A stretch of DNA of 64,000 bases from Mugil cephalus (lineage: Eukaryota > Chordata > Actinopteri > Mugiliformes > Mugilidae). The position numbers were made by a program, and so were the translations under genes. Shown one piece after another: positions 1 to 37,000 of the stretch (position 1 is the stretch's first letter; every line of letters begins with the position of its first letter). The stretch lies in NCBI RefSeq assembly GCF_022458985.1, contig NC_061777.1:20735668-20799667 (forward strand), read 5' to 3'. The notes below the pieces were generated by a model, which searched no databases, was not told where the DNA came from, and saw only the letters and a program-made list of their open reading frames with translations.

Positions 1-641
1 CTGTAAGCAAGTGGGATTAATAGACACATATATAATGTCGTTGCCGACCGACGATCGGCGACGTTGTATAGAAAAACTATTGTGTCCTTATGTCCATGTA
101 ACCTACCCGAGAAATGGGTGAACGACCCACTCGGTGACCGGACGTATCATATCAGGACATTTACTCTTACATCACTGAATCGCCCAGTAATGTGTGACAT
201 CTGTCATCAATTCATAATTATTCCATAATCTTAAATGAATAAATTATGACATAAATACAGCATGAAGCTTAGCGATCGTTAACGCTTTCATTAAAAAAAA
301 AAAACGCTTCACAGTTAATGTGAATGTTAAAGTAACTGCGCTCTGTAGTTACCTACTGTCATTTCAGTTCGTCATGAATATTCACTACTTTTAAATTTTA
401 ATATTATAACTAACAACTCTAACGATTGACATTAGCTAACGTTAGCATCGTTATGCTTAAGTGTTTGCCGCACACATACACAGTGTACTTTCCATCTTTG
501 TCCACCCGTTTTATGGTCTGAAGCCATACATTCATTAGGTTTGTCCCTCCATCTTGAGGGGAGCAGAGAAAATCTCAGAATTTTATATTTTAAGTTGTTT
601 GACAAAACAATTCACAACGCAGCATCTCATAGTGTTTGTAT

Positions 642-801
642 CTATGGCAACCTCTCCTTTGTTTTCCCCCCACAAGGGGGCGTGGCCTTACCAGTGACGT
701 AAAGTTACTCTTCCTCTGACTTCCATGTTTGTGGCTCCAGCGGAGTGCGCATGCGTGAACATCAAAGCCACTCGGGGCTTTGATCTTTTCACATGACGTC
801 A
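642..801 (+). promoter_or_regulatory. Promoter-like block of array copy A
   Basis: Same block as in units B and C: a CTCF-like core (ccacaagggggcg), a gtgacgtaa half site, a GC-rich gcgcatgcg stretch, and a perfect palindromic CRE (tgacgtca) at 794-801. It lies about 260-420 bp before the shared ATG at 1064. Promoter function is inferred from these motifs and from conservation across the copies. Confidence 0.45.
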
Positions 802-867
802 TTGTGTATTTTCTTTATATTCAAACGGATCTGGTTAAGTTTTAGTTCCTGATTTCCAGACAGCTTG

Positions 868-980
868 AAGGAAGTATCTAGCATCCAGACCACGTAAGGA
901 AGTATCTAGCATCCAGACCACGTAAGGAAATATCTAGTATCCAGACCAGTAGGGACGTATCTACCATCCAGGCCACGTGA
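868..980 (+). repeat. 28-bp minisatellite upstream of copy A
   Basis: Four head-to-tail copies of a unit like ggaagtatctagcatccaga followed by ccacgtaa. The copies end in donor-like gtaagg, gtaagg, gtaggg and gtgaac. The array lies between the CRE block and the ccccag acceptor-like site before the gene. Confidence 0.85.
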
Positions 981-1063
981 ACATCTATTAACTATTAATT
1001 GCATCCCAAGTTTTACACTTTAGTGTTTTTTCCCCAGGGTGAAGAAAAAACAAACCAACAGAA

Positions 1064-2822
1064 ATGTCTTCAGTGGAGATATGCAAAGTGCAGATGGCGA
1101 GTCCTGTAATTATTACGGCAGAGGATGTTTTGCCCATAGTAATTGCGCATTTTGAATCAATCTCTCCAGCACAGTGGAGCTTGCTAGCTGCAGATAGTTG
1201 TGACTCACAAACACATGCTGCACTGGCTGACATGCTCACTGAAATAGTACAAAGTATTTCTGCCCAAGTGCTGAAAACCATTCTTCCAGCGGTTCGGCAG
1301 GAGCACATTGCTACGAGTGATTCTCCGACCAATGCGCCAGAAGATGTGGAGAACTTTAGTGCAACCACCATGGGAGACACCTTCTCCGCCAGCTTTGCCG
1401 TCGCCCTTAACGTCCCACAGTTTAGAAGTGAGGATGCTAAAGAGCTGACAGCTCTGGTTGAGAGCGAGGTTTCCCAGAAGGTAAAGTCCGCTCTTTCTCT
1501 GGCTATCAACAGCTCTGCTGAATCCCCAGAGCCTGCAGTTTATGTCAGTGGCTCTATGTCAAGTATTGGTCGTCTAAATCAAATGGTATTTCACGCTGCC
1601 ACATGCCTGAAAAAAGTTGTAGCCAGACTCAAACAACAGTGTTGTGGAGTATGTCAGCGGCCAGAAACCTCAAAATCATCATCGAAGTCAGCTGCTTCAA
1701 CGAGAAGAATGCCCATACATCGCATTCACTCAAACTGAGTCAATTTGTCCATCAAAACTCTCATTAATTATGGCACACCAAACACATTTACTTAGGTCAG
1801 TATGAAAACGTTTACACTGCTCCTCAACAAAGGCTGAATTGTCAACCAGTAAAAACTGTAACCGTTTAGGCAGTTTGAAGAGACATGCCAACATTCATTC
1901 ATAGAGGGCCTTGCTAGACTGAAAAGCTTTAAACGGATCCCATAGAATGTCTTTCCATCCACTTCTACAACAATTTAACATTTCCTAGCATTTGAGAGAA
2001 AGTGAAAACGCTGAGTTGTTTGGAGTAAAAACCGACCTGAATTTGAGAATAAGCTGTCACAAATAGACGAACAGCATCCAGGAATTTCCGACTTCAAGAT
2101 TAAACCTCAATATCAGAATGAGTTGTCTCACCTGATCAATCCCATTGTTCCAGAGGGAAAGAAAGTTTTTGCTGGGACTAAAAGGTGCAACATTGAACGA
2201 TTCACTTCAGAAGTCAGTAGCGGGAAATTAGAAAGTTTTCAAACAGGAAATATCGACATGGGGTTCATGACAATGCCCATTTCTGAGGAAAAAAGTATGA
2301 TCCGATCAACTTAGGAACAGATCGGCAGTTCTGATTACTGAGTCAGTTCATGATTAGGACTCATTATGTGTATTCAACACTTTTCAACACTGAAGTCACC
2401 AACTGACTCAGAGGAATGAGTCGGTAATGGAAAAAAGTTCTTGAAAAAGGTTTTCCGCGTTCTTGATCGACTAATGACGGAAAGATCAAGTCAGATTTAG
2501 ACCAGTTAATCTAGGCTGAGTGATTGTACGTGTGATATAAATTAATGAATACACACAGAAAACGGTAAGAAAGAATTAGATCCATAATTCCGTAAGGTGA
2601 TTCCGGTTAAATGCCCAGACAATTGAGAATACACGCAACGAAAAAACTCACCAAGGCCGTGAAAGACGAGGCAGAATTTGGTCTTCGGACCGGTAGCGTG
2701 ATTCCACGTACCTTTCATGACGGGTTTTGAAGTACTCAAAACACTGCATTTCAACCAGCCTCCCAAGAATAAATTTGCATTTTTCTCACGGCAAGTCGAA
2801 ACCGCAACCCGTCCCCAACTGA
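1064..2822 (+). pseudogene. Array gene copy A, intact 5' part only
   Basis: The first 212 codons match copies B and C almost perfectly, including the same start context (agaaATGtcttc). After 1699 the frame is lost, and an in-frame stop follows at 1736-1738. Recognisable patches of the rest persist, for example tgttccagagggaaagaaag near 2146 and aaaaaactcaccaaggcc near 2641, and a counterpart of the stop codon lies at 2820-2822. Since the damage coincides with the edge of the degraded block, the real locus may well be a third intact gene. Call it a pseudogene only if better sequence confirms the breaks. Confidence 0.6.
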
Positions 2823-5268
2823 AACCGCCTTTACGGGCACCACGGATCCTTCCACCTCCTCTTATGCCTTTCCTTTATTTTCCCTGATCTTACTTTCCTG
2901 TCCTTATTGTTTCCCTTCCTATCCCTTTCTGATACTTTATCCTCTTTCACTATATCCTTTATTCCCTGAGATTTCAGCTTTCTTTCATTTATTATTAATC
3001 TACATCCAAATTCAGGTCTAATTTCAATTCTCTCTTTAAACTTAAACCTTTTAAATATCTATTAATTTCTATCTAGATCTTTACTTCACAATCATTTCAT
3101 CTTTCTGTTCTTCCCTTTAAAAATAAAAAAATTAATTAATTAAACTTCAATAAAATTAATAATATAATAATTATATTAAGATACTGTTCATAATCTTCAT
3201 TTCCCTTGCCCATTTTCTGTTTTAATTTTAAATGATTACGATTCAGTCATAAAGTTTTACTTCTGTGCACTTTCCTTATTTCTAAAGTTAAATCTTATTA
3301 CACTATTATAATTTATATCCTGGCATAAATTTAAAACTTAATTTATTGTGGACAATTTCCAAAAGTAAAGATAATCGTAAATTAATACTAATAAGTTAAA
3401 TCTAAAATGACATAATAAATAATTAACCTCTTATTCTTCAATTTTCCATCACTTTTTCCTTCTTCACTTGAACTTTTAAATTAATCAATGTATAAAAATG
3501 TAAAATTAAAATCAATCGATCACGTATTTATTTGTAAATATATTAATTTTAATATCTCACCCAACACAAATTACATCCAAAGAATAACTATTATATACAA
3601 CTGATATCATATGAAAATTCCAACTATTTATGAGCCATAATTGTAAGGTCTTTAAATTTCTAAATTTTCTACTGCTTGAATTAAAAATATTTAAACTTTA
3701 TAAAATTTTTCAACAATTTTCTTTGTTTGTCCAAATTAAAATATATACGTTCGAAGTGTTTAGTATAAAAAATCAATTCATGTATTTAAAAGTTATTTTA
3801 ATTTACATTTTACATTCCTCTGATTGTGAATCCAAAAATAAAATTAACCAATTGGAAATTACTATTTAAAATTACTATGCCTAAGTGGTATGATTCTCGT
3901 GGTGATTGTTCCATACAATTCAATTGATTAAATTGATGTGAAAATTATTCATAATACTAGATAATGATTGATTGTCGGTAATATTTTCAGAATGATTTGA
4001 TATAAAAGTTTATTATGTGCAACTTTAAGCTTGTACTCATTGGTTCAAATGTCAACATATAAAGTCAATTATAGTTTGACCTATCTTGTTATCACTATAA
4101 ATTGATTTTCACGTATACCATTTCTAATTAACTACCTGTGATTTAGTCTAGTATTGACATCAAATGATCTCTGTCATGATGTTCATGATTGTAAAAAATA
4201 AATAAATAAAAAATTCAGATAAATTGAAACTATTGTAAAATAAAACTTCATTTGAAGGTAAATTTAGACTAGATATGCGTTTCAATCATTTAAGTCTAAC
4301 AATGTCTTTTAACATTTAAACTTTTCAGTTATTACCTGTAAATTCAAGAACTTTCTAGATAATGTCTCACATGAATTTACTTATCGTATCAGCCGTCATT
4401 AATGATTCAACAATTTCTCATATAAATTAAAGCTTGGGGTAATGTCCCTCATTTTTCCTTGTATGTTCCGTAACTTTTTTGCAATGAAGTAAAATATGTT
4501 TCCAGTGACTAAATCTGTTGCAGCTTTATCTGTTGAATTAACAAATTTTAATAAACGTTATAAAGTTTAATCAACCAACTTGTTCTTCAAATTTTTGCAT
4601 AATCAGTTAAAGTCAGTAAATGTGAAAAAATAATTTAATGTTTCTAAACCTTGTTGAACGCAATTGATTACATTTCGTTTTGCGTTAGTTGATATTAGAC
4701 TTCTTATTTCATTAGTGAACATAACAGTCGGCAAGAACAGGCACAAATTGTTCAATAGCAATTCATTTAGTGAAAGCAAACCACGGCTGTAAGCAAGTGG
4801 GATTAATAGAAATTATGTTTGCCAAATGCACGTTTGTATAAAAAACTTATTTACATTATTAATACCGAAATATATAACGTAAGCACTGTTGTTCATGTTG
4901 ATATACCTTAATCATGAATCCCGAATAATGTATATTCTAATTTTTTACTAATCATTAAGATAATTTGACATAATACAGCATAAGCTCGGATCGTTTTTCT
5001 TAAAAAAAAAAATACCTTCACAGTTAGTGAATGTTAAAGTACTGCCTATTACCTAGTCATTTCAGTCTCATGAATAAATTTAAATTTTAAATTATAACAA
5101 CAACTCCATTGACATTAACTACCGTTATGTTAGCAAGTTGCCAAATACATCATTTCCATGCTGTCCACCGTTGACGTTAAGCAAACATTACTTGTCCATT
5201 ACTCGGAAAGGATCGAATTTATATTTTAAGTTGTTTGAAAAACATTTACAACGCACATCTGTGTTGCT
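1700..5268. other. Degraded block, probably uncorrected or gap-filled sequence
   Basis: Left of 1700 and right of about 5268 the array copies match almost base for base. Inside the block every segment is peppered with short losses and substitutions. Coding sequence equal to C 12431-14164 (1734 nt) is reduced to 1123 nt at 1700-2822. Leader sequence of 641 nt in unit A is 482 nt in unit B. The block crosses the A/B boundary and treats coding and spacer DNA alike, and both edges are abrupt. That pattern fits low-coverage long-read gap filling; real decay would be expected to follow unit or gene boundaries. The AT-rich open frame at 3630-3869 lies inside it and is not a gene. Confidence 0.75.
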
Positions 5269-5426
5269 ATGGCAACCTCTCCTTTGTTTTCCCCCCACAA
5301 GGGGGCGTGGCCTTACCAGTGACGTAAAGTTACTCTTCTTCTGACTTCCATGTTTGTGGCTCCAGCGGAGTGCGCATGCGTGAACATCAAAGCCACTCGG
5401 GGCTTTGATCTTTTCACATGACGTCA
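5268..5426 (+). promoter_or_regulatory. Promoter-like block of array gene B
   Basis: Contains cccccacaagggggcgtgg at about 5292-5310, matching the CTCF core at all but about one position, a cAMP-response half site (gtgacgtaaag), a CpG-rich gcgcatgcg stretch, and a perfect CRE (tgacgtca) at 5419-5426. No TATA box is evident. The ATG lies 261 bp after the CRE, beyond the minisatellite and a likely small 5'UTR intron ending in ttttttccccag at 5662. Conservation in three units supports a role; the role itself is inferred. Confidence 0.5.
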
Positions 5427-5491
5427 TTGTGTATTTTCTTTATATTCAAACGGATCTGGTTAAGTTTTAGTTCCTGATTTCCAGACAGCTT

Positions 5492-5604
5492 GAAGGAAGT
5501 ATCTAGCATCCAGACCACGTAAGGAAGTATCTAGCATCCAGACCACGTAAGGAAATATCTAGTATCCAGACCAGTAGGGACGTATCTACCATCCAGGCCA
5601 CGTG
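5492..5604 (+). repeat. 28-bp minisatellite upstream of gene B
   Basis: Four copies of the same 28-bp unit as in A and C, each carrying a gtaagg-like hexamer that could act as a splice donor. The only good acceptor-like site before the gene is ttttttccccag just downstream. Confidence 0.85.
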
Positions 5605-5686
5605 AACATCTATTAACTATTAATTGCATCCCAAGTTTTACACTTTAGTGTTTTTTCCCCAGGGTGAAGAAAAAAAACAAACAGAA

Positions 5687-8056
5687 ATGTCTTCAGTGGA
5701 GATATGCAAAGTGCAGATGGCGAGTCCTGTAATTATTACGGCAGAGGATGTTTTGCCCATAGTAATTGCGCATTTTGAATCAATCTCTCCAGCACAGTGG
5801 AGCTTGCTAGCTGCAGATATTTGTGACTCACAAACACATGCTGCACTTGCTGACATGCTCACTGAAATAGTACAAAGTATTTCTGCCCAAGTGCTGAAAA
5901 CCATTCTTCCAGCGGTTCGGCAGGAGCACATTGCTACGAGTGATTCTCCGACCAATGCGCCAGAAGATGTGGAGAACTTTAGTGCAACCACCATGGGAGA
6001 CACCTTCTCCGCCAGCTTTGCCGTCGCCCTTAACGTCCCACAGTTTAGAAGTGAGGATGCTAAAGAGCTGACAGCTCTGGTTGAGAGCGAGGTTTCCCAG
6101 AAGGTAAAGTCCGCTCTTTCTCTGGCTATCAACAGCTCTGCTGAATCCCCAGAGCCTGCAGTTTATGTCAGTGGCTCCATGTCAAGTATTGGTCGTCTAA
6201 ATCAAATGGTATCTCACGCTGCCACATGCCTGAAAAAAGTTGTAGCCAGACTCAAACAACAGTGTTGTGGAGTATGTCAGCGGCCGGAAACCTCAAAGTC
6301 ATCATCGAAGTCAGCTGCTTCACCCAAGCAACAGATACTATCAAGACCAGAGCGATGCAGCTCTTCAGAACTACAATCTGTAGTCGCTGTCCCATCATTG
6401 AAAAAAGCTGTGAGTGAAATTCTCATCAGAATCTGCAGTGAGTCACCAGATTTGGCTGAAGAGACGGAGGATGATCTGCCCCCACTTACCACCTCTCTGG
6501 AAGCTCAAGCAGCAGCGTCACAAATAGTGAGTGCCATATGTGATGACCTGCGTTATTGCGATTCTGGTGAGAGCACATCACCCACACCTCATTTCAATAG
6601 GGTGCTCCTGGTCAATAAACTGAAAAACTTCTTCAACTCACTGGCTTCTCTGCTAGGAAACGGTGCTGATGTCAACCAGCACACAAAACAACAGCAGTTT
6701 TCTAACTTTGTCAGAAGCCAGTTTAAGAAAGTGATGGCAGAGCTGACGGCCGGCTGTCAGAAAAGAGACCCTGATTTCATTGTCAGTCTTGAAGCTTGTG
6801 AACACGTAGACCGAAGCGAATGTCTTTTACCAGGTAGTGTTCCATCTTCTTCAAAATCTATACCTTCTCCTTCCGCATTGTCGCAGAGGAGTATGGTGAA
6901 AAATGTATCGTCTCTTGATTTTGAGGCTATTAAACCCGACATTGATGGTATGCTGGAAAAATTAAACCAGTCACCCAAACCTGTGAAAGAAGTCAGCAGC
7001 TCACAGGAAAACACGTACAGCAGGGAAATTAGGGAGTTTTCCAAAGAGCTGACAGATAAAATCTACAGACATATGATGGTTGGTCTCACCTGTCAAATCC
7101 CCCATGTTCCAGCGGGAAAGAAAGTTTTTGACTGTGTCCTCTCCAGGTTCAGGAGAAACAGTGATGACGATGAGTTGCACTTTTCTCCTGAAGTCATGTA
7201 TGCCATGACTGAGGACTCGGTTGAAAAGTTTATGCAACAGGTGCTTCTCTGGAAGGAGAGAGATCTGATGCAACCAACTGCCCACATTGAGGAAGTGTCT
7301 GGTGCAATGACAGCAATCGAAAATCTTATGACAACAGTGCTGTCCCCGGCAGGTTCCTCTATGTCTGACAATGAGCAGGTGCAAACGTGTCATGATTTAG
7401 GACTCAATTCAGGTGTAGGTGATTCAGAACATACTGATTTAATATCCAACACTGTAAGGATTCACGCTGACTCGCGAGATCTGAGCTCAGGAAATGGGAA
7501 TGGAAGGATCCCGTCTCCTGAAAAAAAGGTTTCGCCTTCGCCAGTTTTTATGGGCGATGCACTTTGTTTCAGACCGGGACGAATGTCTCAAGAGTCAAGA
7601 GATGAACCTACAGCAGAGCCAGTTAGTTCTTCACCTGTAACTGAGAGCATGACTGATGACTTGGTGACGTGTCTGATCATGAGAATAATAATGAAATCCT
7701 ACAAGGAAAACAACAGGGTGATAAAGAAAGACATGATCAACAGAATAATTGACCGGTTAACAGGCAAAGTCCTGAGTGAGATCAGCTCCACTGATACAAC
7801 TGTGAGAATTGAACACGTCAACATGAAAAAACTCACCAAGGCCATGGTGAAAGACCTGAGGAGAGAATTTGGGTCTTCGGAGTCGCTGCTGTTAGCTGTG
7901 ATATCACAGGATACATCTTTTGATGACGCGGTTTTGAAGTACCTGAAAATCCATCTGCATTTCGCAACCAGTCCGCCTCCAAGGAGATCTAGAATTTGCA
8001 GATTTTTCTCACGAGTCTGGAAAGCCTGCAAAACCTCGATGTGTGTCCCCAACTGA
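5687..8056 (+). CDS. Array gene B: uncharacterised 789-aa protein with an intronless coding region
   Basis: I do not recognise this family. The start is taken at MSSVEI (5687) rather than the in-frame ATG at 5624, because an acceptor-like ccccag lies between them and the MSSVEI start is the one shared by all copies. The protein alternates helix-prone leucine-rich blocks with Ser/Pro/Thr-rich linkers. Blocks lie at roughly residues 18-80, 118-195 (ending in a CCGVC cluster near 193-197), 240-370, 455-560 and 650-740. It ends in a basic, aromatic, Cys-containing tail (RICRFFSRVWKACKTSMC) that could sit at a membrane or be lipidated. There is no signal peptide and no clear transmembrane helix. 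The whole reading frame is one exon of 2370 nt. It is about 98% identical to gene C. Confidence 0.8.
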   Translation: MSSVEICKVQMASPVIITAEDVLPIVIAHFESISPAQWSLLAADICDSQTHAALADMLTEIVQSISAQVLKTILPAVRQEHIATSDSPTNAPEDVENFSATTMGDTFSASFAVALNVPQFRSEDAKELTALVESEVSQKVKSALSLAINSSAESPEPAVYVSGSMSSIGRLNQMVSHAATCLKKVVARLKQQCCGVCQRPETSKSSSKSAASPKQQILSRPERCSSSELQSVVAVPSLKKAVSEILIRICSESPDLAEETEDDLPPLTTSLEAQAAASQIVSAICDDLRYCDSGESTSPTPHFNRVLLVNKLKNFFNSLASLLGNGADVNQHTKQQQFSNFVRSQFKKVMAELTAGCQKRDPDFIVSLEACEHVDRSECLLPGSVPSSSKSIPSPSALSQRSMVKNVSSLDFEAIKPDIDGMLEKLNQSPKPVKEVSSSQENTYSREIREFSKELTDKIYRHMMVGLTCQIPHVPAGKKVFDCVLSRFRRNSDDDELHFSPEVMYAMTEDSVEKFMQQVLLWKERDLMQPTAHIEEVSGAMTAIENLMTTVLSPAGSSMSDNEQVQTCHDLGLNSGVGDSEHTDLISNTVRIHADSRDLSSGNGNGRIPSPEKKVSPSPVFMGDALCFRPGRMSQESRDEPTAEPVSSSPVTESMTDDLVTCLIMRIIMKSYKENNRVIKKDMINRIIDRLTGKVLSEISSTDTTVRIEHVNMKKLTKAMVKDLRREFGSSESLLLAVISQDTSFDDAVLKYLKIHLHFATSPPPRRSRICRFFSRVWKACKTSMCVPN

Positions 8057-8092
8057 AACCTGCTTTTACGGGTCATCACAGGTGATCCTTCA

Positions 8093-8260
8093 CCTCGCCC
8101 TATCCTCTGTCTTGCCCTTTCCTTTATCTTTCCCTGTCCTTTATCTTTCCCTGTCCTTTATCTTGCCCTATCCTCTGTCTTTCCCTGTCCTTTATTTTTC
8201 CCTTTCCTTTATCCCCTATCTCCACTACCTTTATGTCCTCTTTCACTATATCCACAAACC
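8093..8260 (+). repeat. Pyrimidine-rich simple repeat after gene B
   Basis: Imperfect tandem copies of tttccctgtcctttatc. Unit C (14200-14330) has fewer copies than unit B, so the tract changes length between units. It is followed by AT-rich DNA with several aataaa strings (8455-8515) that could serve as polyadenylation signals. Confidence 0.75.
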
Positions 8261-8872
8261 TCCCTGAGATTTCCTGCTTTCTTTCCCTTTAACGTATTAA
8301 TGCTCTACTACTTCTATCTCTTCCTCCTGTCTTTTCCTCAAAGCTTTAAATACCTTTCTTACTATCTTATTAACTTTCTTACTATCTAGGCTATTTTACA
8401 TAGAACTTTCAATTATGTATTGTATTAATTATAAAATGTGTTGCATTCCCCAAAAAAATAAAAAAATAAATAAAATAAAATTAAATTAAATTAAATTAAA
8501 TTAAAATAATTATAAAGCATAATTAAGGCTTCCATCATAGACGTCTGTCTCATTTCCCTGTGCTCCCTCTCTCTCTCTCTTTTTACTTTTTTAGAATTGA
8601 TTACATATTCAGTGTCATAAAAGTATTAATATTTCTCATGGCAGCGGACTCAGTATTGATATGTCGATGTGAAAATAGTTTTTAAAAAACACACGTATAG
8701 ATCAGAAGTATCGACATTCCTGGATCAAGGCATAAATCCTTAACAACGTTCAGGTCTGGGTCTGGACAGAATTTTCCAGACTGACTGTTTGAGCTCATAA
8801 TCTGTGACAGCGGTTACTCCTGATCATCACGGGTCTAATCTCTCCATGGCAGCACTGACTTACAGATATATT

Positions 8873-9396
8873 TTAACCCTCTTATTACATTCAATTTTTC
8901 CAACACTTTTTGTCCTTGGTGTCAATTGGACACCAGCAATTTAAACTTAAATGACAACAGTTAACTGAAATGAGTTTTAAAAAATCCCAAATGTATGTGT
9001 CAGGTACTTTATATTTGACTACTATTACTACTATTATTGACTATCCCCCACCCCACACCACATATACTGTACATCCAGAAGAATAACTATTACACAACTC
9101 TGGAGAAATAAGCAGATCACCATAAAATCTAATCTAACTGGCCTTAAATTGGAAAGAGATATGTTTAAGTGTCTTTATATTGTTTCTCAGTACATATTCT
9201 TGTTGTCTGTAACATTTGATATGAAAAACTATTATCACAACTATTATCAAGAATAATGATGAGTATTTTGTCAGGGCCAATATATGTGTCAGTGTCTGTT
9301 TTGAATGATAAAAAGTAATTCTAATGTTAGTCATATTTTTAGAGACTTCAAACACTGAATTGGGTCAAATTGAGCCCAACATAATAAAAGAGTTAA
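8873..9396. mobile_element. piggyBac-like MITE in unit B (524 bp)
   Basis: The ends read TTAACCCTCTTATTA and, inverted at the right, TTAACTCTTTTATTATG. They are flanked by the TTAA target typical of piggyBac-superfamily elements. It contains the ggtgtcaattggacacc palindrome-like core common to such fish elements. It has no transposase frame. It is present at the same place in unit C, so it inserted before the duplication. Confidence 0.6.
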
Positions 9397-10732
9397 ATTT
9401 AGAAAGTTTAGTCCAATTTACTAACATTATGTCATGATTCTGTGTCCCTACCCCCCATTTCTCCCATATTACACATTCATCCTGGTGTTTTGTTTCTTAG
9501 TGATTGTGTTACAGTCTCAAAGTGTCTTTTTGTCTTCTTCCAGATGGGTTGGATGCATGTAAAACAATAAAATAAAATAAATAAAAAAATCTCAGAGGTA
9601 AAATTGACATCTATGTGAAATAACGTAGCCTACATTTGGCAGATATTGTTACTCAAGACTAACTGCAGATGTGTTTTGGTCATTTATTTCCAAGTCATCA
9701 TGCGTGCGCCTTTTAATGCTTGTGTTTTCCTATTTTAGTCAAACTCTAAACCTCATTAGGAGCACACGACTTATTCAGTGAATATCTGCTAAACAGCAAT
9801 GGAAATGATGTCATGCTGTATGTATGCTTGCTATTAAAACTGAGTGAACCGCATCCCCCTCCATAGTCATCATTTTGCACTGGATGGTTAATGATCCTCA
9901 TGATGAATAGTCACCAGGTAAAGATTAGGAGCAAATGAACTGTATCATTTCAACATTGAAATGCATCTGTAAAACTAAAAACTATTGCACCTTTGATAGG
10001 TTAAAATGTAGGCTTGATGATAATAAGTCTGTATTACACAATCCAAATGGATTCCGTCTGCACACATGATTACTTTTTGCCATGACATTAAAGTTCACAT
10101 GCAGTAGATGCTGACGTAATATTCAAGAAACGTTCTCCTCAAACCCTTATTGAGAGGTAACCTCCATTTTACTTGTGTCAGTATCACGCGTCAGTCAGTG
10201 AGATTCAAGATTCAAGATTCTTTATTGTCATTATGAGAACATAACAGCTCTGGGGAAGAAGCTGTCCCTCATTGTTTTTCCTTGTTTTGATGTTTCTGTA
10301 CCTTTTTTCTGATGGGAGAGGTACAAACAGTGTGTTGCCCAGGTGGATGGGATCCGTTGCAATGCCTCTTGAAATGCCTAGTTTGTATTCTTAACAAAAG
10401 TTATTAATAAAGCGACATAATAAAGTTTGAAATCATATCAAACCTTCACACCTTGCTTTGCTTCAATGTTGATAATAGATCCACGATTAAAGTCTGTAAA
10501 TAGAGAAATAAAATATATTCTCTCATGTCTTAACTGGTTGTTGACCGTCGCTGATTTGTCTCATTAACCGATTGCTCTGCTTTTTTCTGTATTAGTTCAG
10601 ATCATTGACTCTATATACTCGATGGCTTTAGTTCAGACTCACGTTTGTCAAAACAATGTGTCGGCCATAGAAGAGAGTAGCAAATTAGTAGCAATAAGCC
10701 ACATCTCCATTTAGGTGAAAGCAAACCACTGG
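9397..10732. other. Non-coding tail of unit B
   Basis: No gene is supported here. The segment at about 10208-10380 (caagattctttattgtcatt, then ctggggaagaagctgtccct) resembles a widespread fish dispersed repeat with 'gaagaagctgtccctca' and 'tgtaccttttttctgatggg' phrases. The rest is AT-rich unique-looking sequence. The matching DNA in unit A is in the degraded block, and it is missing from unit C. Confidence 0.5.
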
Positions 10733-11379
10733 CTGTAAGCAAGTGGGATTAATAGACACATATATCATGTCGTTGCCGACCGACGATCGGCGACGTTGTA
10801 TAGAAAAACTATTGTGTCCTTATGTCCATGTAACCTACCCGAGAAATGGGTGAACGACCCACTCGGTGACCGGACGTATCATACCAGGACATGTACTCTT
10901 ACATCACTGAATCGCCCGGTAATGTCTGACATCTGTCATCAATTCATAATTATTCCATAATCTTAAATGAATAAATTATGACATAAATACAGCATGAAGC
11001 TTAGCGATCGTTAACGCTTTCATTAAAAAAAAAAAAACGCTTCACAGTTAATGTGAATGTTAAAGTAACTGCGCTCTGTAGTTACCTACTGTCATTTCAG
11101 TTCGTCATGAATATTCACTACTTTTAAATTTTAATATTATAACTAACAACTCTAACGATTGACATTAGCTAACGTTAGCATCGTTATGCTTAAGTGTTTG
11201 CCGCACACATACACAGTGTACTTTCCATCTTTGTCCACCCGTTTTATGGTCTGAAGCCATACATTCATTAGGTTTGTCCCTCCATCTTGAGGGGAGCAGA
11301 GAAAATCTCAGAATTTTATATTTTAAGTTGTTTGACAAAACAGTTCACAACGCAGCATCTCATAGTGTTTGTATCTATG

Positions 11380-11533
11380 GCAACCTCTCCTTTGTTTCCC
11401 CCCCACAAGGGGCGTGGCCTTACCAGTGACGTAAAGTTACTCTTCTTCTGACTTCCATGTTTGTGGCTCCAGCGGAGTGCGCATGCGTGAACATCAAAGC
11501 CACTCGGGGCTTTGATCTTTTCACATGACGTCA
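11380..11533 (+). promoter_or_regulatory. Promoter-like block of array gene C
   Basis: Same layout as in gene B, with the CRE tgacgtca at 11526-11533. The CTCF-like core has one G fewer (acaaggggcgtgg) than in A and B, which could weaken that site in this copy only. Confidence 0.5.
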
Positions 11534-11599
11534 TTGTGTATTTTCTTTATATTCAAACGGATCTGGTTAAGTTTTAGTTCCTGATTTCCAGACAGCTTG

Positions 11600-11712
11600 A
11601 AGGAAGTATCTAGCATCCAGACCACGTAAGGAAGTATCTAGCATCCAGACCACGTAAGGAAATATCTAGTATCCAGACCAGTAGGGACGTATCTACTATC
11701 CAGGCCACGTGA
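11600..11712 (+). repeat. 28-bp minisatellite upstream of gene C
   Basis: Four copies with the same sequence and spacing as in units A and B, except a single change in the last repeat. The copy number has not changed between units, as expected for recent duplication. Confidence 0.85.
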
Positions 11713-11794
11713 ACATCTATTAACTATTAATTGCATCCCAAGTTTTACACTTTAGTGTTTTTTCCCCAGGGTGAAGAAAAAAAAACAAACAGAA

Positions 11795-14164
11795 ATGTCT
11801 TCAGTGGAGATATGCAAAGTGCAGATGGCGAGTCCTGTAATTATTACGGCAGAGGATGTTTTGCCCATAGTAATTGCACATTTTGAATCAATCTCTCCAG
11901 CACAGTGGAGCTTGCTAGCTGCAGATAGTTGTGACTCACAAACACATGCTGCACTTGCTGACATGCTCACTGAAATAGTACAAAGTATTTCTGCCCAAGT
12001 GCTGAAAACCATTCTTCCAGCGGTTCGGCAGGAGCACATTGCTACGAGTGATTCTCCGACCAATGCGCCAGAAGATGTGGAGAACTTTAGTGCAACCACC
12101 ATGGGAGACACCTTCTCCGCCAGCTTTGCCGTCGCCCTTAACGTCTCACCGTTTAGAAGTGAGGATGCTAAAGAGCTGACAGCTCTGGTTGAGAGCGAGG
12201 TTTCCCAGAAGGTAAAGTCCGCTCTTTCTCTGGCTATCAACAGCTCTGCTGAATCCCCAGAGCCTGCAGTTTATGTCAGTGGCTCCATGTCAAGTATTGG
12301 TCGTCTAAATCAAATGGTATTTCACGCTGCCACATGCCTGAAAAAAGTTGTAGCCAGACTCAAACAACAGTGTTGTGGAGTATGTCAGCGGCCGGAAACC
12401 TCAAAATCATCATCGAAGTCAGCTGCTTCACCCAAGCAACAGATACTGTCGGGACCAGAGCGATGCGACTCTTCAGAAGTACAATCTGTAGTCGCTGTCC
12501 CATCATTGAAAAAAGCTGTGAGTGAAATTCTCATCAGAATCTGCAGTGAGTCACCAGATTTGGCTGAAGAGACGGAGGATGATCTGCCCCCACTTACCAC
12601 CTCTCTGGAAGCTCAAGCAGCAGCGTCACAAATTGTGAGTGCCATATGTGATGACCTGCGTTATTGCGATTCTGGTGAGAGCACATCACCCACACCTCAT
12701 TTCAATAGGGTGCTCCTGGTCAATAAACTGAAAAACTTCTTCAACTCACTGGCTTCTCTGCTAGGAAACGGTGCTGATGTCAACCAGCACACAAAACAAC
12801 AGCAGTTTTCTAACTTTGTCAGAAGCCAGTTTAAGAAAGTGATGGCAGAGCTGACGGCCGGCTGTCAGAAAAGAGACCCTGATTTCATTGTCAGTCTTGA
12901 AGCTTGTGAACACGTAGACCGAAGCGAATGTCTTTTACCAGGTAGTGTTCCATCTTCTTCAAAATCTATACCTTCTCCTTTCGCATTGTCACAGAGGAGT
13001 ATGGTGAAAAACGTATCGTCTCTTGATTTTGAGGCTATTAAACCCGACATTGATGGTATGCTGGAAAAATTAAACCAGTCACCCAAACCTGTGAAAGAAG
13101 TCAGCAGCTCACAGGAAAACACGTACAGCAGGGAAATTAGGGAGTTTTCCAAGGAGCTGACGGATAAAATCTACAGACATATGATGGTTGGTCTCACCTG
13201 TCAAATCCCCCGTGTTCCAGAGGGAAAGAAAGTTTTTGACTGTGTCCTCTCTAGGTTCAGGAGAAACAGTGATGACGATGAGTTGCACTTTTCTCCTGAA
13301 GTCATGTATGCCATGACTGAGGACTCGGTTGAAAAGTTTATGCAACAGGTGCTTCTCTGGAAGGAGAGGGATCAGATGCAACCAACTGCCCACATTGAGG
13401 AAGTGTCTGGTGCAATGACAGCAATCGAAGATCTTATGACAACAGTGCTGTCCCCGGCAGGTTCCTCTATGTCTGACAATGAGCAGGTACAAACGTGTCA
13501 TGATTTAGGACTCAATTCAGGTGTAGGTGATTCAGAACATACTGATTTAATATCCAACACTGTCAGGATTCACACTGACTCGCGAGATCTGAGCTCAGGA
13601 AATGGGAATGGAAGGATCCCGTCTCCTGAAAAAAATGTTTCGCCTTCACCAGTTTTTATGGGCGATGCACTTTGTTTCAGACCGGGACGAATGTCTCAAG
13701 AGTCAAGAGATGAACCTACAGCAGAGTCAGTTAGTTCTTCACCTGTAACTGAGAGCATGACTGATGACTTGGTGACGTGTCTGATCATGAGAATAATAAT
13801 GAAATCTTACAAGGAAAACAACAGGGTGATAAAGAAAGACATGATCAACAGAATAATTGATCGGCTAACAGGCAAAGTCCTGAGTGAGATCAGCTCCACG
13901 GACACAACTGTGAGAATTGAACACGTCAACATGAAAAAACTCACCAAGGCCATGGTGAAAGACCTGAGGAGAGAATTTGGGTCTTCGGAGTCGCTGCTGT
14001 TAGCTGTGATATCACAGGATACATCTTTTGATGACGCGGTTTTGAAGTACCTGAAAATCCATCTGCATTTCGCAACCAGTCCGCCTCCAAGGAGATCTAG
14101 AATTTGCAGATTTTTCTCACGAGTCTGGAAAGCCTGCAAAACCTCGATGTGTGTCCCCAACTGA
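11795..14164 (+). CDS. Array gene C: uncharacterised 789-aa protein with an intronless coding region
   Basis: Same length and architecture as gene B, with no gap between the two proteins. By-eye comparison gives about 15 amino-acid replacements and a similar number of silent changes (for example LAADSCD for LAADICD, VSPFRS for VPQFRS, IPRVPEGKK for IPHVPAGKK). Replacement sites outnumber silent sites roughly threefold, so this suggests mild to moderate purifying selection since duplication and a working gene. The start is set at the ATG within agaaATGtcttc, just after the acceptor-like ttttttccccag. The function is unknown. Confidence 0.8.
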   Translation: MSSVEICKVQMASPVIITAEDVLPIVIAHFESISPAQWSLLAADSCDSQTHAALADMLTEIVQSISAQVLKTILPAVRQEHIATSDSPTNAPEDVENFSATTMGDTFSASFAVALNVSPFRSEDAKELTALVESEVSQKVKSALSLAINSSAESPEPAVYVSGSMSSIGRLNQMVFHAATCLKKVVARLKQQCCGVCQRPETSKSSSKSAASPKQQILSGPERCDSSEVQSVVAVPSLKKAVSEILIRICSESPDLAEETEDDLPPLTTSLEAQAAASQIVSAICDDLRYCDSGESTSPTPHFNRVLLVNKLKNFFNSLASLLGNGADVNQHTKQQQFSNFVRSQFKKVMAELTAGCQKRDPDFIVSLEACEHVDRSECLLPGSVPSSSKSIPSPFALSQRSMVKNVSSLDFEAIKPDIDGMLEKLNQSPKPVKEVSSSQENTYSREIREFSKELTDKIYRHMMVGLTCQIPRVPEGKKVFDCVLSRFRRNSDDDELHFSPEVMYAMTEDSVEKFMQQVLLWKERDQMQPTAHIEEVSGAMTAIEDLMTTVLSPAGSSMSDNEQVQTCHDLGLNSGVGDSEHTDLISNTVRIHTDSRDLSSGNGNGRIPSPEKNVSPSPVFMGDALCFRPGRMSQESRDEPTAESVSSSPVTESMTDDLVTCLIMRIIMKSYKENNRVIKKDMINRIIDRLTGKVLSEISSTDTTVRIEHVNMKKLTKAMVKDLRREFGSSESLLLAVISQDTSFDDAVLKYLKIHLHFATSPPPRRSRICRFFSRVWKACKTSMCVPN

Positions 14165-14980
14165 AACCTGCTTTTACGGGTCATCACAGGTGATCCTTCA
14201 CCTCGCCCTATCCTCTGTCTTGCCCTTTCCTTTATCTTTCCCTGTCCTTTATCTTTCCCTGTCCTTTATTTTTCCCTATCCTCTATCCCCTATCTCGACT
14301 ACCTTTATGTCCTCTTTCACTATATCCTTACTACTTCCCTGAGATTTCCTGCTTTCTTTCCCTTTAATGTATTAATGCCTGATCCTATCCATAACATTTT
14401 CAGCTCTACTATTTCTATCTCTTCCTCCTGTCTTTTCCTCAAAGCTTTAAATACCTTTCTTACTAACTATCTTATTAACTTTCTTACTATCTAGGCTATA
14501 TAGAACTTTCAATTATGTATTGTATTAATTATAAAATGTGTTGCATTCCCCAAAAAAATAAAAAATAAATAAAATTAAATAAAATTAAATAAAATTAAAT
14601 AAAATAAAAAATAATTATAATAAGGCATAATTAAGGCTTCCATCATAGACGTCTGTCTCATTTTCCTGTGCTCCCTCTCTCTCTCGCTTTTTAGTTTTTT
14701 AGAATTGATTACAGATTCAGTGTCATAAAAGTATTATTAATTCTTGTGGCAGCGGACTCAGTATTGATATGTCGATGTGAAAATAGATTTTAAAAAACAC
14801 ACGTATAGATCAGAAGTATCGACATTCCTGGATCAAGGCATAAATCCTTAACAACGTTCAGGTCTGGGTCTGGACAGAATTTTCCAGACTGACTGTTTGA
14901 GCTCATAATCTGTGACAGCGGTTACTCCTGATCATCACGGGTCTAATCTCTCCATGGCAGCACTGACTTACAGATATATT

Positions 14981-15512
14981 TTAACCCTCTTATTACATTC
15001 AATTTTTCCAACACTTTTTGTCCTTGGTGTCAATTGGACACCAGCAATTTAAACTTAAATGACAACAGTTAACTGAAATGGTGACAGTTAAAAAAAAAAT
15101 CCCAAATGTATGTGTCAGGTACTTTATATTTGACTACTATTACTATTATTATTGACTATCCTCCACCCCACACCACATATACTGTAAATCCAGAAGAATA
15201 ACTATTACACAACTCTGGATAAATAAGCAGATCACCATAAAATCTAATCTAACTGGCCTTAAATTGGAAAGAGATATGTTTAAGTGTCTTTATATTGTTT
15301 CTCAGTACATATTCTTGTTGTCTGACAACATTTGATATGAAAAACTATTATCACAACTATTATCAAGAATAATGATGAGTATTTTGTCAGGGCCAATATA
15401 TGTGTCAGTGTCTGTTTTGAATGATAAAAAGTAATTCTAATGTTAGTCATATTTTTAGAGACTTCAAACACTGAATTGGGTCAAATTGAGCCCAACATAA
15501 TAAAAGAGTTAA
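14981..15512. mobile_element. piggyBac-like MITE in unit C (532 bp)
   Basis: Orthologous insertion to the one at 8873-9396, with the same TTAA-bounded ends and the same flanking DNA. It differs by small indels and a few substitutions, which can serve as a neutral clock for the duplication. Confidence 0.6.
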
Positions 15513-15562
15513 ATTTAGAAAGTTTAGTCCAATTTACTAACATTATGTCATGATTCTGTGTC

Positions 15563-19256: not shown

Positions 19257-20384
19257 ATGCCTGTTATGTGCAGCAGCTGCACTGAGAAACGTGCTGTGCT
19301 GAAACGTCCAAAAACCAGCCACTCGCTCTGTAAGGAGTGTTTCTTCTGGGCCTTTGAGGAGGAGGTACATCAGACCATAGCGGCTGCACAGCTATTCAAA
19401 CCTGGGGAGACGGTAGCAATCGCAGCCTCAGGAGGAAAAGACTCCACCGTGCTTGCACATGTTATGAAACTCCTAAATGAGCGCTACAACTATGGCCTTG
19501 AGCTTATGCTTCTCTCAGTGGACGAGGGAATCAGTGGTTACCGAGATGACTCTTTGGAGACAGTGAAGAGGAATCAGCAGCAGTATGAGCTTCCGCTGAA
19601 GATTGTCTCGTATGAGGAGCTCTATGGCTGGACTATGGATGCTATAGTGAAGCAGGTAGGACTGAAAAATAACTGCACCTTCTGTGGTGTGTTCAGAAGA
19701 CAAGCCTTAGACAGAGGAGCCCTCATGCTGAAGGTGGACAAGATATGTACAGGTAAATACATAGGATTGTGAAAGTGTGCATTCACGAGGACTGTTAGCA
19801 TTGATGTTTTGTTTCAATGACTGTATGTGTGTGTGTTTTTTGACACAGGCCACAATGCTGATGATGTGGCGGAGACTGTTTTGATGAACGTCTTGCGAGG
19901 CGACGTGGCTCGACTGCGCCGCTGCACTGCCATCTCCACGGCCAGCGAGGGCGAAGGGGTTGTGCCACGCTGCAAGCCTCTCAAATATGCTTATGAAAAA
20001 GAAATTGTCCTGTATGCTTACTTTAAGAAGTTAGACTACTTTTCTACTGAGTGCATCTATTCTCCCAATGCTTATCGTGGCTATGCAAGGACTTTTTTAA
20101 AGGACCTGGAGAGTATAAGGCCAAGCACCATTGTGGACATCATCCACTCCGGGGAGACACTGTCTGTCCGGGAAGGAGTGAAGATGCCTGTCCAGGGAAA
20201 CTGCAGCCGCTGTGGCTACATCTCAAGCCAGGCGCTGTGCAAGTCATGTGTGCTGTTGGAGGGCCTGAACCGAGGTCTGCCTAAGCTGGGAATAGGCAAG
20301 CACCACCGCCTGCATGATAAAATCCTCTCCCAGCAGCCTTTTACTGAGAATGAGGAGAGAAAGCTGAAGTCAGTGGAGTTTTGA
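19257..20384 (+). CDS. ctu1: Cytosolic tRNA 2-thiolation protein 1 (CTU1/NCS6)
   Basis: Catalytic subunit of the CTU1-CTU2 complex, which uses ATP to adenylate and then thiolate the wobble uridine (U34) of cytosolic tRNAs for Lys, Glu and Gln, with sulphur delivered by URM1. Exons are 19257-19752 and 19849-20384, joined in frame (ACA G|GC CAC) to give 343 aa; human CTU1 has about 348. An N-terminal CxxC...CxxC zinc site lies at residues 5-28. The PP-loop SGGKDS is at 58-63. The CTFCG and [11 protein letters not shown] motifs carry the candidate catalytic cysteines, and [10 protein letters not shown] is conserved. A C-terminal zinc motif (CSRCGY...CKSC) completes the protein. All key residues are present. 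Confidence 0.96.
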
Positions 20385-31000: not shown

Positions 31001-34000
31001 ACTCATTCTCTTAAAGCAGAGACTAAACATAGACATAACTCTCATTAACTACAGAGTCGTATATTTAGTGTTGACTGCTGGGAAAAGAATGCAGGGGATT
31101 TCAAAGGTGTAATGGGTTTATGTATGAAGTTGGGGCTCAGTGATCTTGCACTTGGATGAGAAAGCTTTTTTTTCTTGTTGACATGCTGGAACGGGAGACT
31201 CGGAGTCGCTGCCATTGTCTGTTTACAGCCTGACGCCACAGTCAATAGTCTCTGCAGAGCAACCATTAAAGTTTTAACTGGTTTCCAGCCCAACCGTGCT
31301 TGTATGCTCAGACCAATCAGGAATTTGGCTGTGATATATTTGTTTAAATTACACTGAGAGAGTATGTTAGCTATGTTGGTGATATGTTTCAGACGCGTTG
31401 CTGGCGGACCTGGAATCTACTACGTCCCACATCTCAAAACGGCCAGTGTTCTTACCTGAGGAGACCCCCTACTCCATTCCTACGGGAGGACACCCCTACC
31501 AAGATGTGTCGGTTCCACCGCCAGTCCCTCCTTCTCCCCCACCTCCAGTCCCTCCTCCTCCCTCAGCCGAAGCTCTGAACGGGTCCCTGACAGATCAACC
31601 AGACTCCCACCACTCCTCTCAGCAAGTAGGTCTCCATGCCGCTGTTCAGACCTCATCTGAAAATATCTCTCCGCATGTGTCTCACAGTTTTGCGATTGGA
31701 TGAGAGCGATAAAGGTTTAGCCTAGATAGCTCAGGTGGTACAGCATCAGACTTTTAATCTGAGGGTCCAGAGTTCATGGCCCTGTTCAGGTACAACAAAT
31801 ATCTGTCTATCTTCCATGTAACAATAAATCTGTCTAGTAAGCTGTGGGGTCTGTGCACACATTAATACAGTATATTCTGCTAGCTATTTACTTTGCTATC
31901 TTAGAGACCAGTGCAGAAATTTATTATTGCAGCAATAAAGTTGCTGGTCATTACTAAGAAAATGTGTAACTTAATTTCACTCTGCTACTTTACATACATA
32001 AATATGACCATGTCACAAATTAGCTACTTGCCAATGATGTTTTTTTTTTTTTTTTTTAAGTATAGAATTACACATAGTCTTCTCAATATTCAATATTTTG
32101 TTTTTGTTGTTTTTTTTTTGTTTTAATATATGGGTGCATAAATGTTATAATTTGTTTGTGATGTGATAAAATTCATCATTGTAAAACTAAAGGAAATTAA
32201 ACTGATGTATGTTGTGCAGTCGTTAGGTTCAGCCCAGAAGAGCTCTTGGTCCAGGGACAGCAGCAGTTCTCCATTGTCTCACATTGAAGAGGACCACGTC
32301 TACAGGTATCCTGCAAACTTTATATGTAGTGCGGGTAAAGCTAATCACATTATCTGTCTTTTTTTTTTTATCTTTAGTGTCTATTAACAGTTGCCTCTGT
32401 GTCTCTTCTCTTCAGTTTTCCAAACAAACAGAAGACGTCAGACTCATCAACAGCCATGTCTTCTGCGCTGGGCAGTAACCTCTCAGAGCTCGACAGACTT
32501 CTGCTGGAACTCAATGCAGTGCAACAGAGCTCACCTTCATTCCCCACTACAGGTGAATAAAAAGCCCTTAGCTTTGTTAATTCTGTTTGTGCTGAGCAGT
32601 TTTAGTAAAGTTATGTGTCCACAGAGGAGGCAGCTCCACCCTTACCATCCAGCAGCATTACTCACTATGAGAACGGCAGCGGCCCTGACATCTTGGTCAG
32701 CCCGCCGCCTCAGGAAAAACCCAAGAAGAATGGGACAAGGTTGGAGGAAGGCCGACCCACTGTGAAGAGTATGTTGGACGAGCTCGAGTGCTCGGTGCCT
32801 TCACCCAGGTAAACAGTTCCTTCACTGTATAGTCAGATCAGTGATGGGATCCATGACTTATAGGTCCTTCTCCAATCAGAGATGTATGTCCATGTGAATG
32901 ATGTAGGTTTTTATTCCTCTCACCTCACTAAAATCTGAGTTTCAAGTATGCGCTAACAAGCAGGACTTGTGACATGACCGCCAGCTTGTTAGCCAGTCCT
33001 TGGCACACTAGCAAGATGAAAAGTTCAGATCAAACCTGTTGTCTCAAGAGCTGTGATGTAGCTGCTGTGGGTGAAGATATTTACGTTACATAATAATATC
33101 AATATACAATACTATAAAAAACAGTAGAAAAACACTAGTGGCAGAAAAACGTTTTGACTTGTTATTAGAAATAGTGTGATAACTTAGAGTACATAACTGG
33201 TAGTTTGACTTTGGTTGTTGGTAAACATTCAGTATTTGCACTTAATTCTAAATCACATCGTAATATGTATTTTCTAGCCCTTCTCTTCAACACGGTGATT
33301 TGGACACATCATCTCAGCAGCAAGCCAGAATTTCAGCTTCCTGTGCCACAAGAGAGCTAGATGAGCTGATGGCCTCTTTGTCTGACTTCAAGGTAAAGAG
33401 AAACATGAGTGAACAATGGAAATACATGTCATCAACACAACATGCACTTCCCCTTTCATGTTCCTGATAATTTCTTTCCTCTTCTTCTTCCTCTGCTTAT
33501 GCTTCTCTTTTCTCTAGCCCAGTTCTTTGGGCTCTCTGCTGGACCCAGCAGGAACATTTTCCAGCTCTCATCATCCTCCAGTCACTTCCTCCGTGCCTTC
33601 TCCTTCTCTTAGTCTGTCCCAGCCGTCTGCCTGTGCCTCTCCTCTTTTCTCTTTACCTGCTGGTTTCGAGCTACACATAGATGAGGATGGAGGAGACGGC
33701 GGCATATTGAGGCCCCATTCAAGCCGTCTGCTTCCTCACAGTCCTACATCCTCACTTTCTGCAGCCAGTGACCTAGACCTAGACTCTGTCATAGATGTCT
33801 CTGCCACCATGCTGTCATCACAGACCAAGAATCTGCTAGTCCTGTCTCAGTCCGCTTCCTCTAACTTCAACCTGATGAGAAATGGCTCAAGTCCTTCAGA
33901 TACCACCTCCCCCTCACTTACTTCTGTTAACACTGTCCTGGACCACAAGTCCTCTAAGTCCCCTAGTCCATCTGTAGACCGGGCCTCACCCTCAGCTACT

Positions 34001-37000
34001 GTTGGTAAATTCCCTGCTTGTTTTCCTGACCTTGATTTCTCTACTACACCTCCGTCCAAAAACTTCACCCCTCCTCTCTCCGTTCCTTCACCACACCCTG
34101 TCACTGTCTCTGTATCTCCAACTTCTGCTCATATATCCTCAACATCTTCACCATCTCCTGTCTCTCCACCAATGGACCCCTCTGGACTGGCCTTTGCTAG
34201 CACCAGCAGACTGTTGGAGACTGCACCAGCAGCCCAGAGAGTCAGCCCCCTCTCTATACAGCAACCCCCCGTAGTAGAACCTTCTCTGGACGAGGCTCTA
34301 GACAAGCTGCTAGCAATGAGTTTTCCACAAAATCATGCAACATCATATCTAGACGATCAACAGGTGAAGACGGAGGCGCAGTGTCTCGGCAGAGGAATGC
34401 AGGAGGTGCAGGAGGACTTTATTCTGCCCCTAGACAGGAACAGTGTGCTGCCGGACACTTTCACCAGCGCCACCAACACCATCACAGACGGCTCAGTAGA
34501 CGGAGGCACCGATGGGAACGGAGACCTGGACTGGGCTGACGAGGAACTGTCAATGTCCTTTCATGATGGACTGGATGGCACCATGACGCCATACACTGAG
34601 AGGTTGTACACAGATGGCAGCATGACCCCACTGACAGAGGCCAGCTGGATGGATGAGTCCATGACCCCGTCCTCATGCCCCGGGACCCCTGATGTTGCCC
34701 TGGACCTGCCCCTGATTCAGAGTCCCAATATAGACAGAGTCTCTGCTTCTGGACATGTATGCATTTCCACTCCTGCTTGACACAACACGAGCCAGTTTGC
34801 CTTTTTGTATTTATTTATTTGCTCTTGGCTGTGAGACATTTGCTTCTATATATGCTAGCCTCTGCTTCAAAGTCAATTGATTGATCAGTCAAATGACCTC
34901 ACATACCGCTGAAGTTTGTAAGACGGTTTTGTCACCTTTATGTGGCAGAGTTACTGCTGCAGACTGTTATGCAGAGGCTAGCTGAATGGACATGAACTAA
35001 TCAGAGTTTTTGCTTTGATTGTGCACTTTACTACTAACTGGCTGTTTGGTAGCACCAGCAATCAACATGGCACCGCCAGTTTTGTGTAAAGGATTCTAAT
35101 GCAGCTTCTGTTGTGAAGTGGTTGTGGCTGCCTGAGAGTCTGGGAGGAATGTCCATTTACAAGAGAGGCATATGACGTGAGCATGCAAGAAATACATGAA
35201 TTGTGACTACGCCCACTGAACTCCACTGCATCCTGGCATGTGTGATTTCTAAATAGTTTGTGAGACTCACCTGCTCCTCCAGAGCTCTGCTGCCAATGCT
35301 TAAGCTGCCGTATGGTTAAAGTGGACATATGATAAGATGCTTACCATTCCCTCTTAGATAAAGTCAGTGATTAGGCGCACAAAGGAGACTCCCAATGTTC
35401 ACCCCATGTACCGAGACGGTCATCTGCGCAGGAAGATGGGACCCGTCATTGTTAACAAGAACACTTCTCAGGACCGTCTCATAGAGGAGCTGCAGGGTAA
35501 GCTTGGGATTGGCCGCTCAGAGCGGCGGCGTAAACAGTCTGACGAATGGCTGACTGACGGTGTCATCATCACGTCCAAACCTCAGCGTTTCCGTCCTGAT
35601 TGGGGCAGCAGTGAGGTCGACAAGGTTGGCTTCAGTGTGCTCAAAAGATTTCCCAAGTTTTCCTCTTCCAATTATTTCACCTTTTCTATTTTTCTACACC
35701 TTCTCTCTCTGTCTCTTTGCCTCTCTGTTTCTTTCCCTTCTTTAGATCATAATCCCCCCTGAGTCTCCTGTCCCTGTGAGGAAGGTGCTCTCACCCGTCT
35801 CCCCCCCTACCCCTCGTCGACCCCCTGTTACAGAAGAACCTAAACAGCCGCTCATCCCAGTGCAGCTACCCCCTGTCCCAATACCCCCACCTCCTCCTCC
35901 GCCTCCCTCTCCCCCACCACAGCCTTCCCATATTCAGGAACCAATACCTGTTGCACCTATGCATATAATAAAACCCTCACCTCCACCAGCCCCAATTCAG
36001 GAGCCTCCTGCCCCCAAACCAGAGCCCCCTCCCCCTGTCCTTAATACCCCAACACGACCTCCACCGCCAGTGGAGACAGTTCCACTAGTTCCACCCAAAG
36101 TCCTGGTTTCTGTAGGCTGCCAAACAGAGTATGACCCCATCTTCTCCCCAATGCAGGCACGAATCTCCATCTCTTATTCCTCTATTATTTACACTTGTAA
36201 GAAACCCACCTGTGTTACGTTCTCAGATCTCCGTGTATATCAGACAACACATTTTCATGTTTAAACATTTCAGATTATGGCTCAAGGAAAAGGTGGAGTT
36301 CCTGGTGGGCCTCCAACACAGGTCAACAAGCTGGACAACATGCTCGGTAGCCTGAAGTCTGACCTCAACAAACTTGGGGTGCAGACGGTACCTAAGGGAA
36401 TGTGTGGTGCCTGCTGTAAGCCGATTGTTGGACAGGTGACATACTTATTGTATCCATCACACAAATACAGCATATAAACCTTCTAATATCTAATCTAATA
36501 ATTTCTGTACTGAATGAAGATCGGCTTCTCTGTTTGTTTAGGTGGTGACAGCCATGGGACGCACGTGGCACCCTGAACACTTTGTGTGCACTCACTGTCA
36601 AGAGGAGATCGGTTCCAGGAACTTTTTTGAGCGTGATGGTCAGCCCTACTGTGAGAAAGATTACCATCATCTGTTTTCCCCACGATGCTACTACTGCAAC
36701 GGGCCCATACTGGATGTGAGTCACTCCTCTTTGTGTGTTGTCTCTGTAAATTTCTAGAATAATCTGAATAATCTAGCCAAATTGTTGTCATGTCAATTCA
36801 GAAAGTTGTGACGGCGCTGGATAGGACATGGCATCCTGAGCACTTCTTCTGCGCTCAGTGCGGATCCTTCTTTGGGACAGAAGGTATTGTAATTTTCTTT
36901 TTTTGCAGTAATTTAAGACTGTGAACTTGAATTTGTACACATTTGTGTTAGTATTATATAGTGAATACACGTGTTTCTGTTTTTCCTGTGAAGGGTTTCA

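Follow-up and report, generated by a model that had tools for sequence, protein, structure and literature searches.

For single-exon genes of teleosts, an origin by retroposition with later tandem duplication has been described, and among those that have a parent, 63% bear a protein name (PMC8207432). Among zebrafish orphan and lineage-specific genes, nearly 28% of the orphans are single-exon; retroposition has been proposed for such genes, and reproductive expression of young genes has been noted (PMC3599513). In the 64,000-nucleotide stretch of the Mugil cephalus genome analyzed here (the window), an array of large genes resembles the genes treated in the relevant parts of PMC8207432 in being intronless and tandem and in having intron-bearing relatives in the same genome. 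Unlike what those parts describe, it has no named family, its relatives occupy about 100 loci, and the upstream sequence was duplicated too. The likeness to the zebrafish orphans lies in the single exon and the proposed retroposition; the superfamily itself is not described in the portion of PMC3599513 that bears on them, and word searches of the open-access literature returned no description of it. What we report is an expanded and apparently uncatalogued gene family; its general kind is known, its scale is unusual, and its intron record is useful. With moderate confidence, and from sequence comparisons, we read the array as a protein-coding, recently expanded branch of an uncatalogued superfamily, with an intronless lineage, spread as DNA, and a putative role as a membrane adaptor.

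The features of the window are listed in Table 1. The first-pass annotation had proposed a recently amplified, intronless gene family with two complete head-to-tail genes and a third copy in uniform units of about 5.9 kb. Both 789-codon reading frames are present and continuous, and recent amplification is borne out by the near identity of the W2 and W3 proteins (Table 1) and by further copies on the same contig with 96 to 98% identity. The uniform spacing did not hold, the starts at 1064, 5687, and 11795 lying 4,623 and 6,108 nt apart; elsewhere on this contig, at C8:18.60-18.62 Mb, a second array has a spacing of about 5.6 kb. The third copy was recovered in part, with a homologous start and a short open frame. 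Homology of the repeated unit extends up to about 2.1 kb to the left of the window start (L026), and unit 3 matches window positions 1 to 1699 with 98.9% identity. The NG86 dN/dS (omega) between W2 and W3 is 0.24. By these comparisons the array is more than a chance occurrence of open frames, with full-length ORFs of 56 to 74% identity on two other contigs.

Table 1. Features of the array and its flanks (window positions unless L026 is given)
Feature	Position	Strand	Basis or remark
Left beta-crystallin gene	L026 3050-4277		
NRF1-like site, W1 counterpart	746-756		
CRE, W1 counterpart	794-801		
28-bp minisatellite, further copies	868-978		
W1, first copy (open frame here)	1064-1738	+	ORF, homology; homologous ~220 codons only
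Stretch of probable assembly corruption, from the second half of unit 1 into the upstream part of unit 2	1700-5214	.	indel-dominated, GC 0.31
Tandem unit	5215-9446	+	alignment; 96.4% identical to 11311-15562
NRF1-like site TGCGCATGCGT upstream of W2	5371-5381	+	motif match
CRE TGACGTCA upstream of W2	5419-5426	+	motif match
28-bp minisatellite, 4 copies, between motifs and ATG of W2	5493-5603	+	
W2, complete single-exon gene, 789 codons + stop	5687-8056	+	ORF
N-module, residues 1-195, common to superfamily	5687-6271	+	omega 0.32-0.34, four pairs
Middle module M1, residues 236-360	6392-6766	+	
Middle module M2, residues 412-556	6920-7354	+	
C-module, residues 649-757	7631-7957	+	
Basic amphipathic tail with cysteines	7958-8053	+	hydrophobic moment 0.68, net charge +5 (best 18-residue window)
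Copied fragment of upstream beta-crystallin gene	9445-9561	+	intron end and last-exon start by eye; exon matches Pfam
Tandem unit, counterpart of 5215-9446	11311-15562	+	alignment; 96.4%
NRF1-like site, W3 counterpart	11478-11488		
CRE, W3 counterpart	11526-11533		
28-bp minisatellite, further copies	11600-11710		
W3, complete single-exon gene, 789 codons + stop	11795-14164	+	ORF; protein 98% identical to W2

The frame of W1 is lost near position 1700, with homology reaching about 1723. When aligned with 6323-11310, the stretch from 1700 to 5214 shows 701 indel events (591 deletions and 110 insertions) and 314 mismatches, that is, 2.23 events per mismatch. The same lenient gap costs gave 14 events to 55 mismatches (0.25) for unit 3 against unit 2, 0.09 and 0.13 for coding paralogues, and 0.88 and 0.81 for two noncoding paralogue comparisons; such costs raise every ratio, and all controls still fall well below 2.23. 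The edges are sharp, with 98.9% identity directly to the left (1-1699) and 96.4% directly to the right (5215-9446). Because the change in identity is abrupt, we read the stretch as probably a failed assembly consensus rather than a product of decay.

Searches of 634.8 Mb of genome in 24 contigs at the DNA and protein levels, with the window on C8, yielded a branch of 22 loci. Of these, C8 has nine, C13 has five near 23 Mb plus a decayed copy at 5.32 Mb, and C6 has four; one of the two on C10 is a fragment, and the single locus on C19 is decayed. Intact ORFs of 744 to 789 codons are present in seven of the 22 loci, on three contigs: four on C8 (W2, W3, and two outside the window), two on C6, and one on C13. 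Protein identity to W2 is 96 to 98% on C8, 74% on C13, and 71% and 56% on C6. Over 15 distant intact pairs the NG86 omega is 0.39 to 0.45, while YN00 gives higher values of about 0.49 to 0.59 for the same pairs. Judged by these ratios, the seven intact copies are under purifying selection. The duplicates might instead be mostly nonfunctional, with a once-useful gene decaying and selection a signal of the past, as 15 of the 22 loci, W1 included, are not intact, C8d carries 6 frame-shifting indels, and the recent C8 pairs have omega values of 0.24 to 0.47 on few changes. We consider this unlikely in view of the seven intact long ORFs, among them C6d at a dS of about 0.8; moreover, in the near copies C8b, C8c, and C8e no more than one or two single-base indels interrupt the frame, and these could have arisen in the assembly. 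The decayed copy on C19 (L025, 23.22 Mb) lies beside ORFs that by eye look transposase-like and Ty3/gypsy-like.

A search of the contigs with the W2 protein also returned distant long ORFs, and the use of other members as queries extended the set. With the N-module of a C16 member, at least 148 matches were obtained at an E value of ≤0.001, which fall into at least 114, 103, and 99 loci on 21 of the 24 contigs when clustered by start at 2, 3.5, and 5 kb; adding selected matches from two other searches gives at least 133, 122, and 113 loci, respectively, all counted among the best candidates scored and including some fragments. The key matches among members have E values of about 1e-8 to 1e-26, and the best reversed decoys had 0.038 when two different proteins were compared and 1.9e-4 when a protein was compared with itself reversed; the weakest matches among the most distant members (about 1e-4) do not improve on the latter. 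On these matches, the window array is one branch of a superfamily of roughly 100 to 115 loci on 21 of the 24 contigs. The earlier proposal of an undescribed family stands as to the lack of a catalogued family and missed the scale, the window being one branch of a genome-wide superfamily.

Members range from two-exon genes for 417-amino-acid (aa) proteins to ORFs of more than 1,900 codons. C19x (795 aa) has three segments colinear with W2 at 29 to 33% identity; C15x and C21x have 757 and 728 aa. The largest are C4x (L031; open frame of at least 1,933 codons, three N-modules), C2x (L032; at least 1,855 codons, two N-modules), and C16x (L033; 1,515 codons, two N-modules). These three giants are about 79 to 87% alike in their best segments and have NG86 omega values of 0.47 to 0.54 over 546 to 563 codons. 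The end of C2x resembles the C-region of a compact gene (33%, E value of 2e-9), and its similarity to the W2-type C-module is weak (hhalign probability of 24%). The giant ORFs lack introns, repeat modules internally, and carry basic stretches that recur along the protein.

The lack of a recognizable family in the window proteins, as first noted from the sequence, was upheld by profile and PDB sequence searches, which gave no convincing match. In Pfam, W2 and W3 score at most 14.4 and 12.4 bits, respectively, where the cutoff is 27, and the best result among the other five intact branch members is RhoGAP in one of them (E value of 0.0029). NCBIfam and PHROGs searches with W2 and a PADLOC search with three proteins gave nothing convincing, and no PDB sequence gave a match of note to the members searched. 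Among the giants, Ipi1_N (PF12333; 24-bit cutoff) is passed by L031 (36.2) and L033 (24.6), these being whole-protein scores of repetitive proteins, with two stretches in L031, and DUF5918 reaches 28.2 in L031 against a cutoff of 27; the likeness to Ipi1_N is not seen in the window proteins. The family could still be a fast-evolving member of a known one, such as the AKAP-like or fibrous-sheath proteins, whose sequence has diverged beyond the reach of profiles; such scaffolds are presumably similar in their modular build, their linkers of low complexity, and their basic amphipathic stretches. With W2 and W3 lacking any Pfam match near the cutoff and PDB sequences giving none of note, we find this explanation doubtful. 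With no accepted model for the window proteins in the libraries searched, a module that recurs about a hundred times in one vertebrate genome would mean that current annotation by family misses a sizeable and recent gain of genes.

The W2 protein divides into four blocks, linkers, and a tail (Table 1). When four pairs were split by module, omega was 0.24 to 0.43 in the four blocks and 0.23 to 1.93 in the linkers, where 10 of the 12 values were ≥0.46; the tail is weakly constrained (0.48 to 0.98). Helical periodicity is found in M1 (z score of 2.8), M2 (2.8), and the C-module (3.0) but is not significant in the N-module (1.3). The description of helix-prone blocks separated by Ser/Pro/Thr-rich linkers agrees with composition and selection, and with periodicity in three of the four blocks, the N block being the exception. 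Profile comparisons among the W2 modules gave nothing, and the idea that they are repeats of one another was dropped. The basic amphipathic tail ends W2, C19x, C15x, and C21x; it is shortened in C6d and missing from the end of C16x, in a comparison that does not reach the ends of C4x and C2x. The helical modules of the window protein may bind partners, as in an intracellular adaptor, the disordered Ser/Pro/Thr linkers would serve as spacers or phosphorylation stretches, and the basic, cysteine-bearing tail would hold the protein on membranes. The protein is perhaps a membrane-associated adaptor of the germline, a function we infer from these features and from those upstream of the gene.

Upstream of the genes lie two motifs, which we take to be NRF1 and CRE sites, and a minisatellite (Table 1). 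Within 600 nt upstream, the NRF1-like site (≤1 mismatch) is present in 16 and an exact CRE in 18 of the 20 branch copies examined, compared with 0 and 14 of 1,000 random 600-nt windows of the same region; the counts are taken over near-identical duplicates and are hence nonindependent, and motif distances vary. Both sites are absent upstream of C10a and C10b, and none of six more distant members has the motifs, three of these having less than 300 nt available. NRF1-like and CRE sites may be linked to germ cells, and their conservation here weakly suggests germ-cell expression. An X-box (RFX) site was also considered; it is near perfect upstream of W2 only, with at least 3 mismatches in the other 19 branch copies, adjoins the corrupted stretch, and was dropped. 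A tract resembling a 3' splice site before the ATG (about 5650-5662) occurs in the aligned C8 copies and not in C13b, C6c, or C6d.

The C8 copies have more than 4 kb in common, flanks included, and the C13 and C6 copies have upstream sequence, ORF, and 3' sequence in common. Because upstream motifs and flanks are common to the copies, the window branch spread as DNA together with its promoter. Retrogenes are expected as copies without the promoter and flanks of their source; the branch copies have kept both.

The intron record comes from compact relatives. L034 and L035 are two-exon genes for proteins of 417 and 416 aa, and in the gene model of L034 a GT-AG intron of 198 nt splits the N-module at the position equivalent to W2 residues 51/52, a point at which the window ORFs and C19x have no intron. 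In a DNA search with L034, among the best 40 of 355 candidates, 19 loci have query positions 1-482 and 673 onward adjoining and so lack exactly that intron. Among the same 40, 12 loci, the query included, give a single match spanning the intron region; in 8 of these the target length differs from that of the query by no more than 40 nt, and in the other 4 it is 65 to 201 nt shorter and may lack part or all of the intron. Inspection of three among the 19 showed stop-to-stop frames of 448 and 427 codons in L040 and L041, respectively, and a broken frame in L042. As these three are 84 to 88% alike, with some flanking sequence in common, one event and later spread could account for the 19. Since the 19 dispersed loci and the window genes lack exactly that intron, it is plausible that the intron disappeared long ago in an ancestor, on one or several occasions, through retroposition or intron loss. 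From this it does not follow that the window copies are retrocopies; among themselves they are DNA duplicates. The retrogene origin first suggested for the array thus gains from its intron-bearing relatives and loses in that the close copies multiplied as DNA. The presence of intron-bearing and intronless forms in one genome makes the route from compact to giant genes directly testable. A further tandem array, with five matches to the 3' part of a compact gene about 4.8 kb apart, was seen at C8:5.32-5.34 Mb.

Could these genes be part of a mobile element, or be carried by one, with the protein an element ORF and transposition the means of dispersal? About 100 dispersed loci on 21 contigs would fit, as would compact-lineage copies with common flanks and A-tracts near the 3' end. 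However, by eye the homology runs past the A-tract, and at three compact-lineage loci no convincing target-site duplication was found, only a match in A-runs and words of 7 to 8 bases. Transposase, reverse transcriptase, and virus-type profiles had no convincing match in the members scanned, the nearest being weak single-member hits to Herpes_UL6 (E value of 0.023), Phage_int_SAM_6 (0.084), and HCMV_UL15A (0.77). Coding selection, upstream motifs common to copies, and the inclusion of a piece of a crystallin gene in the tandem array speak against it as well, and we think a mobile element quite unlikely. In the history that we favor, of a protein-coding branch spread as DNA, an intron-bearing ancestor would have given rise, through retroposition or loss of the intron, to a lineage without it; this lineage would have gained a promoter and longer middle parts and then spread by tandem and segmental duplication. 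It is very unlikely, in our estimate, that the superfamily of some hundred host loci renews itself by alternating retroposition and DNA duplication, growing from 417-aa two-exon genes to intronless genes of more than 1,900 codons by internal module repetition, with germline conflict, either gametic drive or the suppression of selfish DNA, as the driving force.

The array sits between two beta-crystallin genes, one about 1.7 to 3 kb to the left of the window start and the other at about 16.9-18.1 kb, presumably crybb2; the exons tested match Pfam PF00030. A piece of the left gene is contained in the repeated unit, so that the duplication broke within this gene or next to it. Downstream of the array, a two-exon gene at 19257-20384 with PP-loop and zinc-ribbon Pfam matches is presumably CTU1-like, and a tRNA-Lys (TTT) gene was found by ARAGORN and Rfam at 31720-31793. 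Farther on, Pro/Ser-rich and LIM-like pieces at 33518-38680 look paxillin-like by eye (one piece, when scanned, had no Pfam hit), and an exon of the Frag1/DRAM/Sfk1 family (PF10277) lies on the reverse strand at 46837-47124.
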